Assembly (NCBI RefSeq): GCF_011398155.1
Contig: NZ_AP021888.1
Span: 2,392,001 to 2,456,000, forward strand
Source: Thiosulfativibrio zosterae
GTDB taxonomy: Bacteria > Pseudomonadota > Gammaproteobacteria > Thiomicrospirales > Thiomicrospiraceae
Length of the DNA: 64,000 nucleotides
Direction of reading: 5' to 3'
Positions 10,902 through 15,099 of this stretch are shown here, piece after piece (positions within the stretch are counted from its first letter, which is position 1; each line of letters opens with the position of its first letter). The notes below the pieces were generated by a model that saw nothing but the letters and a program-made list of their open reading frames with translations, was not told the DNA's origin and searched no databases. The translations under genes and the position numbers were made by a program.

Positions 10902-11588
10902 CTAAATTTTGATATAAGCCCAACCTTGTTTCATTTTATCGACAACTTCATCTATTGCAGCGGTATCAGATTTAACACCTTGCATTAATTGAATTTCACG
11001 CCCTTCAGTTTTGGCTCTTTCTAGGGCATTTTGACAAGCAACTAAGCGTAGATTATTGTATTGCGCCAACATTTTTTGAATGTCTTCTGAGCTCTCTGAG
11101 CGCGCATCAAACAACTGGATACCATGATAATTAGCAACAATTTCTACTTCCGCAGCAGGATGACTGCTGAGTAAATACTGAGTTTCCAATAAAGTTTTTT
11201 GCATTTTCACCGGGTCTTTAGAGTCTAAATGAACCACAAAGTTATGACTGGGCACTTGAGCAATTTGTTCAATGTTGCTGTTAGAGTTTAGTTGTTCTAT
11301 GAACATAAACCCTCCCAAACCTATGATGACACCCAGTAATAAGGAGGCCACTAAACTGGTTTTTTGACCTTGCATTATAGGCCGCTTATTTTCTATAAAC
11401 TTAGGGGTTGGAGGCGTAATTTGTCGATAAAAATTAACAATCTTTTGCTTGTTTGCGCGTAACTGATTGAGTTCTTCTGCCAGCTCAGGATTTTGAGCCA
11501 ATTCTTTTTCAAATAATTGGGTTTCAAGGGCAGATAATTCACCATCAAGGTAAGCATGAATATCAGAATTAGCAAAAGGAGATTTCAT
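10902..11588 (-). CDS. Anti-sigma factor with C-terminal DsrE-like domain
   Basis: A 228-residue single-pass membrane protein. Residues 1-60 resemble the cytosolic anti-sigma domain (HAYLDGELS at 11-19, then an acidic helical stretch), but the HxxxCxxC zinc motif is absent. A membrane helix spans about 77-98. The outer part (about 115-228) looks like a DsrE/DsrF-fold domain: VVHLDSKDP, VEIVANYHGIQLF, then LVACQNAL with Cys185, ending GWAYIKI. I infer that it holds the partner sigma factor at the membrane and that the periplasmic DsrE-like domain senses a signal, plausibly a sulfur compound through Cys185. The start overlaps the sigma stop codon by four bases (ATGA), so the pair is translationally coupled. 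The periplasmic placement of the domain follows from topology only. Confidence 0.72.
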   Translation of the reverse strand: MKSPFANSDIHAYLDGELSALETQLFEKELAQNPELAEELNQLRANKQKIVNFYRQITPPTPKFIENKRPIMQGQKTSLVASLLLGVIIGLGGFMFIEQLNSNSNIEQIAQVPSHNFVVHLDSKDPVKMQKTLLETQYLLSSHPAAEVEIVANYHGIQLFDARSESSEDIQKMLAQYNNLRLVACQNALERAKTEGREIQLMQGVKSDTAAIDEVVDKMKQGWAYIKI

Positions 11589-12169
11589 TTCTGACTCCGT
11601 AAATAAACAACTTTTTGGCTTTTTTTATGGGAATACTCTCTTTCTAAAAGAGATTTTAATTTACTTCGAGCTCGCGACAAACGCGACATAACCGTGCCCA
11701 CAGGTACCTCTAAAACACTGGCTGTTTCTTGATAGCTAAATCCCTGCAAATCAACTAAGGTGACCACTTCTCTTTGCTCAAAAGGCAAGCAACCTATGGC
11801 TTGATGGACCGTAAACTCAGTTTGTTGAGTAATACAATTGTCCTCGCAAGATTTAGCAAAATCAAAATGATCTATATCTTCCGTATCGGTAAATTGCCAC
11901 TGTTGATTATAACGCAGCCTGTCAATGTAAAGGTTGTGCAAAATTTTGCATAACCAAGGTTCTAAATCTTGCAAATTTTGGAGCTGATGTTGTTTTTCAA
12001 TCGCCTTTAACATGGCTTCTTGAACCAAATCCTGTGCCAAAGACTGCTGTTGGCTCCATGCCAAAGCCAAGCGGTATAGCTTTGCATATTGCATTTCTAA
12101 CAACTGGTTGAAATGGCTTTCTAACTTTCTTTTTCCGGTCCAGTTTATTAGGGAATTTCTCAATTTCAT
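11585..12169 (-). CDS. ECF (extracytoplasmic function) sigma factor
   Basis: A 194-residue sigma-70 family protein with the two-domain ECF build. Region 2 includes DLVQEAMLKAIEK and DLEPWLCKILHNLYIDRLR; region 4 includes QREVVTLVDLQGFSYQETA and VPVGTVMSRLSRARSKL, the DNA-recognition helix that should read the -35 element. The gene is followed without gap by its membrane-bound anti-sigma factor and is divergent from a gene for a secreted DsrE-like protein and a porin, the most likely targets. ECF operons are usually autoregulated; the 246-base divergent region is the place to look for the promoter. Confidence 0.9.
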   Translation of the reverse strand: MKLRNSLINWTGKRKLESHFNQLLEMQYAKLYRLALAWSQQQSLAQDLVQEAMLKAIEKQHQLQNLQDLEPWLCKILHNLYIDRLRYNQQWQFTDTEDIDHFDFAKSCEDNCITQQTEFTVHQAIGCLPFEQREVVTLVDLQGFSYQETASVLEVPVGTVMSRLSRARSKLKSLLEREYSHKKSQKVVYLRSQK

Positions 12170-12415
12170 TGCGCAATCACATCGTTAAAGTTTTCAGGTA
12201 TCCGCATTTAAAAAATGCACTTTTTTTGAGTCTATCCGAAAAAACACTTTGACTGCAACTATTTGTTTTTAATAAAGATATAACCATTTAATTAAATAAA
12301 AAAACCTTGTTGTGGCATAAAAATTATATCGATAAAAATTTGGAATAAACCTTTGAGAATCCCGTTATTAGGATGTGACATTAAAAATAAACCATCAATA
12401 ATGTGAGGTAAATTT
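12170..12415. promoter_or_regulatory. Divergent control region between ECF sigma and DsrE genes
   Basis: The 246-base AT-rich region carries an inverted repeat GCATTT AAA AAATGC (12204-12218) flanked by two direct copies of TATCCG (12200-12205 and 12233-12238). These lie within 70 bases of the sigma gene start and could be promoter or operator elements for it. On the other side, TGAGG at 12404-12408 is the ribosome binding site for the GTG start at 12416. No clear housekeeping promoter was recognised, in keeping with ECF control, but the -35/-10 pair could not be identified with confidence. Confidence 0.4.
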
Positions 12416-12877
12416 GTGAAAACTGTTAATCATACCCTAGCGGGGATCATGTTCATTTTGAGCTATCTGCTGGCATTTAATGTTCAAGCTGCTCAAAAAG
12501 AAGCCCCTTTGCCAGAAACCTTTGCCACTCATAAAGTGGTTTTACAAATCAGCGACCCCGATCCATTCAAACAAACTTTGGTTTTGAATGTAGCTGCCAA
12601 TCTTCAAAAATATTATGGACCTGAAGATGTTGATCTTGAAATCGTGGCTTTTGGGCCTGGACTAAGATTGATGCTCGATGGCAATTCAAATGCAAAACGT
12701 ATTAAATCAATGATGGATGGAGGCATTCGTTTCAGTGGCTGTGCAAATACGCTTGAAGGTTTTTCTAAGCAATTGGGTTACAAACCCGCACTACTAGAAG
12801 GTGTTCAAGTCATGCCTGCGGGCGCAGGACGCATACTGCAACTCAATGCGGCGGGTTATCAAATCCTTAAGCCTTAG
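12416..12877 (+). CDS. Secreted DsrE-family protein
   Basis: A 153-residue protein with a signal peptide ending at VQAAQKEA and a DsrE/DsrF-like domain (about 38-153). Recognisable parts are KVVLQISDPDPFKQTLVLN, the strand VDLEIVAFGPGLRLML, and the cysteine segment IRFSGCANTL with Cys109, which corresponds to LRLVACQNAL (Cys185) in the anti-sigma factor encoded divergently. Family members handle sulfur atoms or sit in sulfur-relay complexes; a periplasmic location is inferred here. It starts at GTG with TGAGG seven bases upstream. A porin gene follows after 74 bases, probably in one operon. I infer that this protein and the anti-sigma domain recognise the same compound or each other. Confidence 0.75.
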   Translation: MKTVNHTLAGIMFILSYLLAFNVQAAQKEAPLPETFATHKVVLQISDPDPFKQTLVLNVAANLQKYYGPEDVDLEIVAFGPGLRLMLDGNSNAKRIKSMMDGGIRFSGCANTLEGFSKQLGYKPALLEGVQVMPAGAGRILQLNAAGYQILKP

Positions 12878-12951
12878 TCATCAACTCTCAAAAGTTTTTT
12901 ACAACTTTGACGCTAAAACAAAAATAATAATATCTTGGAAGGATACGACCC

Positions 12952-14235
12952 ATGAATAACGAAGTTCAATCAACTCAAATTAAAAAAACCATGCTGGCAG
13001 CGGCCGTTGCAACCGCTTTAGTTGCCGGAAATGTTCAAGCCGCAAACTGGTTAATGCTGCAAGGCACAGAACCTGCCAACAGTGCCGAACGCGCTAAGGT
13101 TTGGGGGTTTGTGCAAGCTGAATATCAACAAACTGACGACACCCTTCTACCAAGTGGTAAAAAGGCTGCTTTCAACCAGTTAGCACCAGATTTAAGTACA
13201 TCATCAGGATTTAACATTAAAAGAGCGCGTATTGGCGTAAGAGGCGCTAATCTGCCTTTGGATTCAAAGGTAAATTACTTTTTACTGGCAGAGTTTGGGA
13301 ATAATGGAATTACTACCGGAGGCAATGCCGGCCCCGGACAAGTTTCCGATGCCAGCATTACGCTCAACCACATTCCAGGCGCGCGTATTCGTGTAGGACA
13401 ATTTAAAACGCCTGGCGTTGAAGAGAGCTTGCAAGCCGCACCTGTTTTTAATTATGTCAACTTTACGACGATGACTGACCGCATCATTAATGAACGCCAA
13501 TTCACTAGCTCTACAGGTAATACTGGGCGCAATGGTTCTAATAGTTCTTTCCGTGATATTGGTGTACAGGTGTTTGATGCTTTTGATGTTAAAGGCTATG
13601 AGCTGAGTTATGCCTTAATGTATGGCAATGGTAATGGCTTAAACCGCAGTGACAACAACAAATTCAAAGACTTATACACCTATGTATCCTTAGAAAAATA
13701 CTTTTCAGATGACAAAGGCCCTCGCGCCAAAAGCTTTAAGGTGTTTGCTTGGAATCAAGATGGTAAACGCACTTTATCCGACTTAGGTGACAAAAATCGC
13801 ACCAGAAGCGGCTTAGGAACCACCTTCTTCAATGGCAAGTTTAGAGCTGCGGCTGAATATATTACTGCAGATGGTATGATTTATGGGGGATCTTCAGGGG
13901 GTGGATTGCCCAGTGATGGCGCAACCTTTAGTGTTCAAGCTGACGAAAAAGCCAACGGCTATTACCTAGACTTAGGCTATCGTGTGATTCCAAAGCTAGA
14001 ACTTAAAGTGCGTTATGACACACTTAATAGTGGCACAGAAGTAGCAACGAATGAGCGCAAATTTACAACCACGACCATTGGGGGACAATATTTTATTAAC
14101 AAAAAAACGACCCTGTTAGTGGACTACGAAATGCGCGAAGCATCTGCACCAAATCTCGCATCAACGCACGCGGCTAATAAAATTTTAGATACGATGGACA
14201 ACCGTATCGCCATCCAATTAGGGGTAGTTTTCTAA
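12952..14235 (+). CDS. Outer-membrane porin, phosphate-selective (OprO/OprP-like) type
   Basis: A 427-residue beta-barrel porin. The signal peptide runs to about VQAANW. The mature protein begins with a strand KVWGFVQAEYQQTDD and has the family's SGFNIKRARIGVRG segment and VGQFKTPGVEES, followed by many alternating amphipathic strands and a C-terminal phenylalanine (QLGVVF), the signal for insertion by the BAM complex. It resembles the OprO/OprP porin group, but the selectivity cannot be inferred. A strong ribosome binding site (GGAAGGA) precedes the ATG and a clear terminator follows. Its place after the DsrE gene and opposite an ECF sigma factor suggests sigma-dependent expression, possibly in response to a sulfur species or envelope stress. 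Confidence 0.85.
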   Translation: MNNEVQSTQIKKTMLAAAVATALVAGNVQAANWLMLQGTEPANSAERAKVWGFVQAEYQQTDDTLLPSGKKAAFNQLAPDLSTSSGFNIKRARIGVRGANLPLDSKVNYFLLAEFGNNGITTGGNAGPGQVSDASITLNHIPGARIRVGQFKTPGVEESLQAAPVFNYVNFTTMTDRIINERQFTSSTGNTGRNGSNSSFRDIGVQVFDAFDVKGYELSYALMYGNGNGLNRSDNNKFKDLYTYVSLEKYFSDDKGPRAKSFKVFAWNQDGKRTLSDLGDKNRTRSGLGTTFFNGKFRAAAEYITADGMIYGGSSGGGLPSDGATFSVQADEKANGYYLDLGYRVIPKLELKVRYDTLNSGTEVATNERKFTTTTIGGQYFINKKTTLLVDYEMREASAPNLASTHAANKILDTMDNRIAIQLGVVF

Positions 14236-14275: not shown

Positions 14276-14299
14276 AACCCCGCATTGCGGGGTTTTTTT
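14276..14299 (+). terminator. Rho-independent terminator after the porin gene
   Basis: AACCCCGC and GCGGGGTT pair around a two-base loop and are followed by seven T. It closes the DsrE-porin operon. Confidence 0.9.
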
Positions 14300-14421
14300 C
14301 ACCTTTTTAATAATGTCTACCCTCTTTTCCCCAAAGAGTGATTTCAGTTTTAACGCTCATTAATATGAACTTCTCCAATGAAGGCGTTAAAATCATTTAA
14401 AAGATTTCAGTGAGGGTGCTT

Positions 14422-15099
14422 ATGAGATTACTAACAACCATTTTAATGGGCTTTTTATTGGGTTTGGGTTTGATGAGTTGCAGCCTTAACTCGGAAAAGC
14501 CTGTTGTGCAAAATGTGCCGTTAAAAGGCACAACATGGCATTTGACGCATCAATATGACCCCAAAACTTTTGACGCAATCGGCGTGGATATTCAGGCGAG
14601 TTTGGTGTTGAGTGACGCAGGCTTTTCTATCAGTGGTTCGGATGGTTGCAATCGTTTTGTGGGCGCTTATCAGGGCGCTCAATCGGCAGATGGTCGCTTG
14701 AGTTTTTCAAGATTTTCCAGCACGCGCATGGCTTGTATTCATCATGCCGAACAAAGCCAAGCCTTTATGGCGGCCTTGAAGGGCGTGACCGAGCTTGAGT
14801 TGTATGGCAAAATTTTAACGCTCTATCAAGGCAATAAGCCGTTATTACGATTTAGCCCTGAAGCGCCTGCCAAACAAGTTCAACGGGTCAATTATCGCTG
14901 CGGCACAACGGATCTTAAAGTGCATTTTGAGGATCAAACCGCCTATTTAAATTGGTTGGATGAAGAGCAAATTTTGCCTTATGTTTTGTCGGCTTCAGGG
15001 ACCAAATATATGAATAACCAGCTGACTTTTTGGACCAAAGGTCGTAAAGCTTTCTTGATTTGGGACAAACAAAACCTAGCCTGCGAGCAACAAGATTAA
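14422..15099 (+). CDS. Lipoprotein with META and MliC-like domains
   Basis: A 225-residue lipoprotein. The lipobox is LMSC near residue 20, after a short hydrophobic signal. Residues about 35-150 form a META (HslJ-like) domain: GTTWHLT at the start, SGSDGCNRFVGAY in the middle and TRMACIHHAEQSQAF. The C-terminal third (YRCGTTDLKVHF to the end) looks like an MliC-type lysozyme-inhibitor domain with paired cysteines. ATG at 14422 is preferred over the GTG at 14410 because GAGGG lies just before it. The combination suggests an envelope-protection role, which is inference. It stands alone, with convergent methyltransferase downstream. Confidence 0.78.
   Translation: MRLLTTILMGFLLGLGLMSCSLNSEKPVVQNVPLKGTTWHLTHQYDPKTFDAIGVDIQASLVLSDAGFSISGSDGCNRFVGAYQGAQSADGRLSFSRFSSTRMACIHHAEQSQAFMAALKGVTELELYGKILTLYQGNKPLLRFSPEAPAKQVQRVNYRCGTTDLKVHFEDQTAYLNWLDEEQILPYVLSASGTKYMNNQLTFWTKGRKAFLIWDKQNLACEQQD

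Follow-up and report, generated by a model that had tools for sequence, protein, structure and literature searches.

What does an extracytoplasmic function (ECF) sigma factor respond to, and what does it control, when its anti-sigma factor ends in a DsrE-like domain and its genes face those of a secreted DsrE-like protein and a porin? The question is raised by positions 10902-14235 of a 64,000-nucleotide stretch (the window) of contig NZ_AP021888.1 of Thiosulfativibrio zosterae. Reading of the open reading frames (ORFs) of the window confirmed a four-gene locus, in which the sigma/anti-sigma pair lies on the minus strand and the genes of the DsrE-like protein and the porin lie on the plus strand. 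The start of the anti-sigma gene overlaps the end of the sigma gene by 4 bp, and a gap of 246 bp separates the sigma gene from the divergent gene of the secreted DsrE-like protein. The source is a single genome of 2.65 Mb from a Thiomicrospira-like sulfur oxidizer, whose nearest named relatives are Thiomicrospira sp. WB1 and a Thiotrichales metagenome-assembled genome; a profile search found SoxB in it. We give a probability of roughly 70% to the reading that the locus encodes an ECF sigma/anti-sigma switch devoted to periplasmic sulfur, sensed through Cys185 of the anti-sigma factor, and that this switch controls the secreted DsrE protein and the porin.

Fold and architecture of the two DsrE-like proteins

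The anti-sigma factor (228 aa, 10902..11588, minus strand) was recognized from its ORF, from weak zf-HC2 and anti-sigma N-terminus matches and from its DsrE domain. The secreted DsrE-like protein (153 aa, 12416..12877, plus strand) has a GTG start and a signal peptide extending to about residue 25. In single-sequence Pfam scans the two proteins matched DsrE with E-values of 0.0018 and 0.024, respectively, both below the cut-off. Profiles of their relatives were searched against the PDB with hmmsearch. The outer domain of the anti-sigma factor (residues 117–228, 10905..11240, minus strand) retrieved 1l1s/MTH1491 (E = 1.2e-17) and 2pd2/ST0148 (5e-10), and the secreted protein retrieved the same two structures (4e-19 and 6e-9). 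Foldseek searches with AlphaFold models ranked these structures first, with TM-scores (by target length) to 1l1s of 0.88 for the anti-sigma domain and 0.71 for the secreted protein, and the anti-sigma model also matched DsrE of the Allochromatium vinosum DsrEFH complex (TM 0.65). The models are modest (built from 2-3 sequences each, with mean pLDDT of 62 and 66), and the fold assignment therefore rests mainly on the profiles. From these sequence comparisons there is little doubt that both proteins adopt the DsrE fold.

Cys185 (codon TGT, 11034..11036, read 11036-11034 on the minus strand) lies in the model where a strand ends, just ahead of a helix. In the alignment this Cys is invariant in 71 of 71 anti-sigma factors. 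The equivalent of Cys109 of the secreted protein (codon TGT, 12740..12742, plus strand) is found in 79 of 81 homologues, the two exceptions being ORFs whose sequence there is not DsrE-like. Cys185 and Cys109 share one DsrE position, which is aligned with a Cys of MTH1491 and corresponds to the conserved sulfur-binding Cys of the family; Cys185 is thus predicted to be the active Cys of the anti-sigma DsrE domain. A tree of the DsrE domains separates those of the anti-sigma factors from the secreted ones by one branch (support of 0.996), and the one entry on the wrong side comes from an ORF that was called incorrectly. The original prediction of a DsrE-like outer domain with Cys185, and of a secreted protein with Cys109 at the matching place followed by a porin, holds on this evidence: structure prediction and profiles lead to the DsrE fold and not to an unrelated one. 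Further secreted DsrE-like proteins were seen as well. In relatives a second one (approximately 163 aa, with the Cys present) often stands between DsrE and the porin (for example, L066 and L073), and it is missing in the window. The source genome encodes two more with the Cys, distant from the operon protein (C1:1202527-1202991, L002, and C1:2058998-2059264, L003), the latter just ahead of a ferredoxin-like gene.

The remainder of the anti-sigma factor has the layout of a class I protein. Its cytosolic part (residues 1–57, 11418..11588, minus strand) forms helices 7–14, 20–32 and 34–57 in the AlphaFold model, as N-terminal anti-sigma domain (ASD) helices do, and a membrane helix and a neighboring cognate sigma gene complete the arrangement. 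Matches to zf-HC2 families were seen in 28 of 32 anti-sigma members (weak for that of the window), and weak RseA_N matches in three of the 32. No Cys pair with the spacing of the HxxxCxxC zinc motif was present in 37 anti-sigma members, which places them outside the zinc-binding anti-sigma class. Moreover, Cys185 is the sole Cys of the window protein, so zinc binding of the HxxxCxxC type and an internal disulfide are both impossible. The hydropathy profile has one hydrophobic helix (residues 79–98, 11295..11354, minus strand; 2.5 over 19 residues), as was originally proposed, and the residues on its N-terminal side are rich in Lys and Arg; the predicted topology therefore has the N-terminal part in the cytosol and the DsrE domain outside. 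The adjacent gene encodes a protein of 194 aa (11585..12169, minus strand) with Pfam matches to Sigma70_r2 (3e-11) and Sigma70_r4_2 (1.6e-17), a TIGR02937 match over the cut-off and no region 3, which is the make-up of an ECF sigma factor. The DsrE anti-sigma factor presumably binds this neighbor.

Promoter, porin and recurrence of the locus

A motif GGAATAA-N14/15-CGTT occurs upstream of DsrE in nearly all members from the family of the source genome; in the window it reads GGAATAA-N14-CGTTA (12342..12367, plus strand), a putative ECF-type promoter of the DsrE/porin operon that is conserved in relatives. Counted as GGAATA-N14..16-CGT[CT], the motif is present ahead of 43 of 62 leaders of DsrE/porin operons (29 of 32 in the source family), compared to two of 339 other leaders and 0.05 expected of 62 in shuffled sequence. 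Both of these other genes (L215 and L219) encode SoxB-like 5'-nucleotidase proteins that are divergent from a sigma/anti-sigma-DsrE pair. When the genes are arranged in tandem the motif stays with DsrE, and in L094/L095 it lies directly ahead of the porin. ORF calling by longest frame errs in GC-rich loci (L227 and L233 were re-read by hand), so the counts outside the source family are rough and probably low. Sigma genes themselves are preceded by the motif in 22 of 71 cases (20 of 42 outside the family and 2 of 29 inside it), and autoregulation thus seems to operate in many lineages. The sigma gene of the window seems to use a sigma70-like promoter (TTGCAG-18 bp-TAGACT, 12229..12258, minus strand), which was read by eye and has similar elements in relatives. 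That the sigma factor controls the DsrE/porin operon is a well-supported prediction from motif conservation. The proposal of sulfur-sensing control over the porin gains a conserved ECF-type promoter at the porin operon, but control of the porin alone was too narrow a view, because some lineages have a sox operon or a SoxB-like gene as a target in addition to the DsrE/porin operon.

The second product of the operon is an outer-membrane porin (427 aa, 12952..14235, plus strand) that may belong to an OprO/OprP-like family. Porin_O_P was matched by 11 of 25 aligned homologues (best 1.3e-12), with the window porin itself below threshold, and a search of PDB sequences with the porin family gave no useful match. 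Many arginines are invariant among the aligned porins; together with the Porin_O_P matches, these residues would fit an anion channel. A terminator-like hairpin with a T run (14276..14299, plus strand), read from the sequence, lies 3' of the porin gene. Further downstream, at 14410-15099, is a lipoprotein with META and MliC (lysozyme inhibitor) domains, likely a separate unit. An Rfam scan of the window gave no match.

The arrangement was followed in two surveys, the first a search of 143 relatives with fetched neighborhoods, the second a set of 40 loci picked by the anti-sigma factor alone. In most carriers of the source family the sigma/anti-sigma-DsrE pair faces away from one or two genes of secreted DsrE proteins and a porin gene, with flanking genes that vary by genus; in one genus sigma, anti-sigma and DsrE genes are in tandem, and in another the porin is directly opposite. 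The second survey found the same arrangement in other families. Overall, 67 pairs were readable, with a divergent DsrE in 43, a divergent porin in four and a tandem DsrE in eight. Recurrence in dozens of genomes with differing flanking genes means that the pattern is not due to chance. GlnE (L098, L212) and YidC/MnmE (L096) were discarded as module parts, being ordinary chromosomal neighbors. In one genome (L071:6370-6729, G005) a second DsrE/porin copy without sigma genes has its DsrE frame cut by TGA and is probably decaying, and in another (L097:6712-8871, G141) a SulP-family permease stands behind a paralogous sigma/anti-sigma-DsrE pair. In a phylum-wide sample of 299 genomes the full-length anti-sigma-DsrE protein was restricted to the same class, the Gammaproteobacteria.

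Association with sulfur oxidation and competing explanations

Among 370 genomes of the class, SoxB was found in 67 of 68 carriers of the full-length anti-sigma-DsrE protein and in 89 of 302 non-carriers (Fisher p = 1e-28), and in a one-genome-per-family sample in 10 of 11 carriers and 15 of 69 non-carriers (p = 2e-5), p values that overstate independence since the sampled genomes are related. For the secreted DsrE alone, the one-genome-per-family sample gave SoxB in 22 of 25 genomes with the protein and 3 of 55 without it. Gene order provides a more direct link. In two genomes of one family (L227 of G214 and L233 of G317) the promoter, sigma, anti-sigma-DsrE, soxX, soxY, soxZ, soxA and soxB follow one another on one strand (soxZ of L227 was read by eye), with DsrE and the porin divergent from the sigma/anti-sigma genes that head the sox genes (L227:118-6400, and likewise L233). 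This pair is a candidate transcriptional regulator of Sox. L226 (G225) has soxA, soxB and another DsrE gene to one side; to the other side, DsrE and the porin are followed by genes for a thioredoxin-like protein and, with a score below the cut-off of the TsuA model, a TsuA-like transporter (L226:8050-9833). The SoxB-like 5'-nucleotidase/metallophosphoesterase proteins with the same motif (710–724 aa; L215:1789-3960, L219:4494-6623) belong to a porin-free form of the module. The suggested link to sulfur oxidizers, and the recurrence of the arrangement among them, are thus borne out by the near-complete co-occurrence with SoxB and by the sigma/anti-sigma-DsrE pairs at the head of soxXYZAB.

The most serious competitor, which we nonetheless hold to be improbable, is an envelope-stress switch. 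Here the DsrE domain would be a docking fold, the secreted DsrE protein an RseB-like partner, and the state of the porin or the envelope, rather than sulfur, would be watched. A porin is the usual partner of the sigma/anti-sigma-DsrE pair, the single-helix layout is RseA-like, down to the few weak RseA_N matches, and the secreted protein, being homologous to the sensor domain, could bind to that domain as RseB does to RseA. An active-type Cys that is invariant in both proteins, the near-total association with SoxB, the position of the pair ahead of soxXYZAB, and copies that have a SoxB-like divergent target and no adjacent porin all argue against it. We consider a thiol-stress or metal sensor, in which Cys185 would respond to oxidants, sulfite or soft metals (arsenite) and the operon would be protective in sulfidic habitats, to be less probable still. 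In its favor, exposed cysteines that stand alone tend to be reactive, DsrE/F-like genes of Thioalkalivibrio change under arsenite (PMC6620896), and sulfite-responsive ECF26 systems exist (PMC3511301). Against it, both proteins have their Cys where the DsrE family binds sulfur, a position that points to sulfur transfer; one family has soxXYZAB as a likely co-transcribed target, and the module is without detoxification genes. That the sigma factor acts on genes elsewhere, with an independent DsrE/porin operon incidentally close by, fits the lack of a genome-wide excess of the short motif (below) and is very improbable in view of its frequency at operon leaders (43/62 against 2/339) and its retention across changed arrangements and flanking genes.

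A genome-wide search of the source genome gave 17 loose motif matches, compared to 53 in the reversed control. There is no excess, and a wider regulon derived from such searches was dropped; the evidence for control is therefore the conservation at the DsrE site. This site is the only intergenic, well-placed match in the source genome. Nearly all of the others are inside genes, and the rest overlap a start or have no start following. Besides the relatedness of the sampled genomes, three observations weigh against a periplasmic sulfur switch. The soxB gene of the source genome is approximately 1.1 Mb from the locus, with no motif match in its vicinity. In the sample, 89 of 156 SoxB genomes are without the module, which is therefore not required for Sox. 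Lastly, A. vinosum DsrEFH accepts sulfur directly from neither thiosulfate nor glutathione persulfide (PMC3397948); loading may thus require a donor protein.

Proposed mechanism and known systems

In the periplasmic sulfur switch that we favor, the sigma factor would be held at the inner membrane by the anti-sigma factor in the resting state. Periplasmic reduced sulfur (thiosulfate, tetrathionate, polysulfide or sulfane sulfur) would modify or bind Cys185, which might be loaded directly, through the secreted DsrE protein, or perhaps by handover from a Sox protein. The anti-sigma factor would then change and let the sigma factor go, or would be degraded, and the freed sigma factor would transcribe the divergent operon from GGAATAA-N14-CGTTA, yielding the secreted DsrE protein (as carrier, competing buffer or co-sensor) and a porin suited to anions. 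Were this porin to admit sulfur anions, a supply circuit would result. In this scheme the sulfur ligand, the reaction at Cys185, the release of the sigma factor and the substrate of the porin are inferred. The chemistry has precedents: DsrE-Cys78 of A. vinosum DsrEFH carries sulfur as a persulfide and transfers it onward (PMC3397948), and Metallosphaera DsrE3A forms a Cys-S-thiosulfonate when it meets tetrathionate (PMC4175335). In a more specific and distinctly tentative version, the secreted DsrE protein would act as a sulfur carrier in the periplasm and pass persulfide or thiosulfonate to Cys185, the protein-to-protein relay itself being the signal and the porin importing the substrate, in a feedback circuit of sulfur loading.

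How sulfur oxidizers sense thiosulfate, polysulfide and stored sulfur outside the cytoplasm, and how these are carried there, is poorly known. The module is common among Gammaproteobacteria that have the Sox pathway, and its parts lend themselves to testing: a specified sensor residue, a soluble homologue, a single promoter and a porin. If the proposal is correct, this ECF system senses by means of a sulfur-carrier fold, and DsrE proteins act in the periplasm in signaling or as carriers. That many thiosulfate oxidizers share the switch, and that some have it at the front of the thiosulfate-oxidation operon, suggests a mode of extracytoplasmic sulfur sensing that has so far not been described. 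The open-access literature searched, with most subscription journals outside its scope, held no report of a DsrE-domain anti-sigma factor or of a DsrE/porin operon; as far as checked, the component parts are of known kinds, and neither the sensor fusion nor its connection with sox has been described.

By fold and Cys position, both DsrE-like proteins of the window resemble the MTH1491-like branch (1l1s, 2pd2) of the DsrE/DsrF family (PF02635). DsrEFH and TusBCD are cytoplasmic, whereas the window proteins are predicted to be extracytoplasmic, one of them fused to a membrane anti-sigma factor. The source genome gave no DsrA match over the cut-off, and the co-occurrence with DsrAB that accompanies DsrEFH of the reverse Dsr pathway is lacking in it. 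The anti-sigma factor is akin to the class I proteins RseA and RskA in that a single membrane helix joins a helical cytosolic N-terminal part to a C-terminal domain outside, and in the position of its gene behind the sigma gene; it differs in that its outer domain is DsrE, and it has no HxxxCxxC. SqrR and BigR, sensors of sulfane sulfur or sulfide, also respond to reactive sulfur species (PMC9995734, PMC5823870), but are DNA-binding repressors, whereas the sensor proposed here faces the periplasm. In Sulfurovum indicum, dsrE is described as periplasmic, near sox and upregulated on thiosulfate, with porins upregulated on S0; the passages on this dsrE mention no link to a sigma/anti-sigma pair (PMC10045233). 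The nearest functional precedent is the sulfite-responsive RpoE1/RpoE4 (ECF26) pair of Sinorhizobium meliloti, likewise an ECF sigma factor and anti-sigma factor tied to sulfur oxidation (sorT) with a small local regulon (PMC3511301). It differs in having a COG5662 anti-sigma factor, in targets that include sorT and not DsrE or a porin, and in a signal thought to be sulfite made inside the cell (PMC3511301), whereas the switch proposed here would read sulfur in the periplasm.

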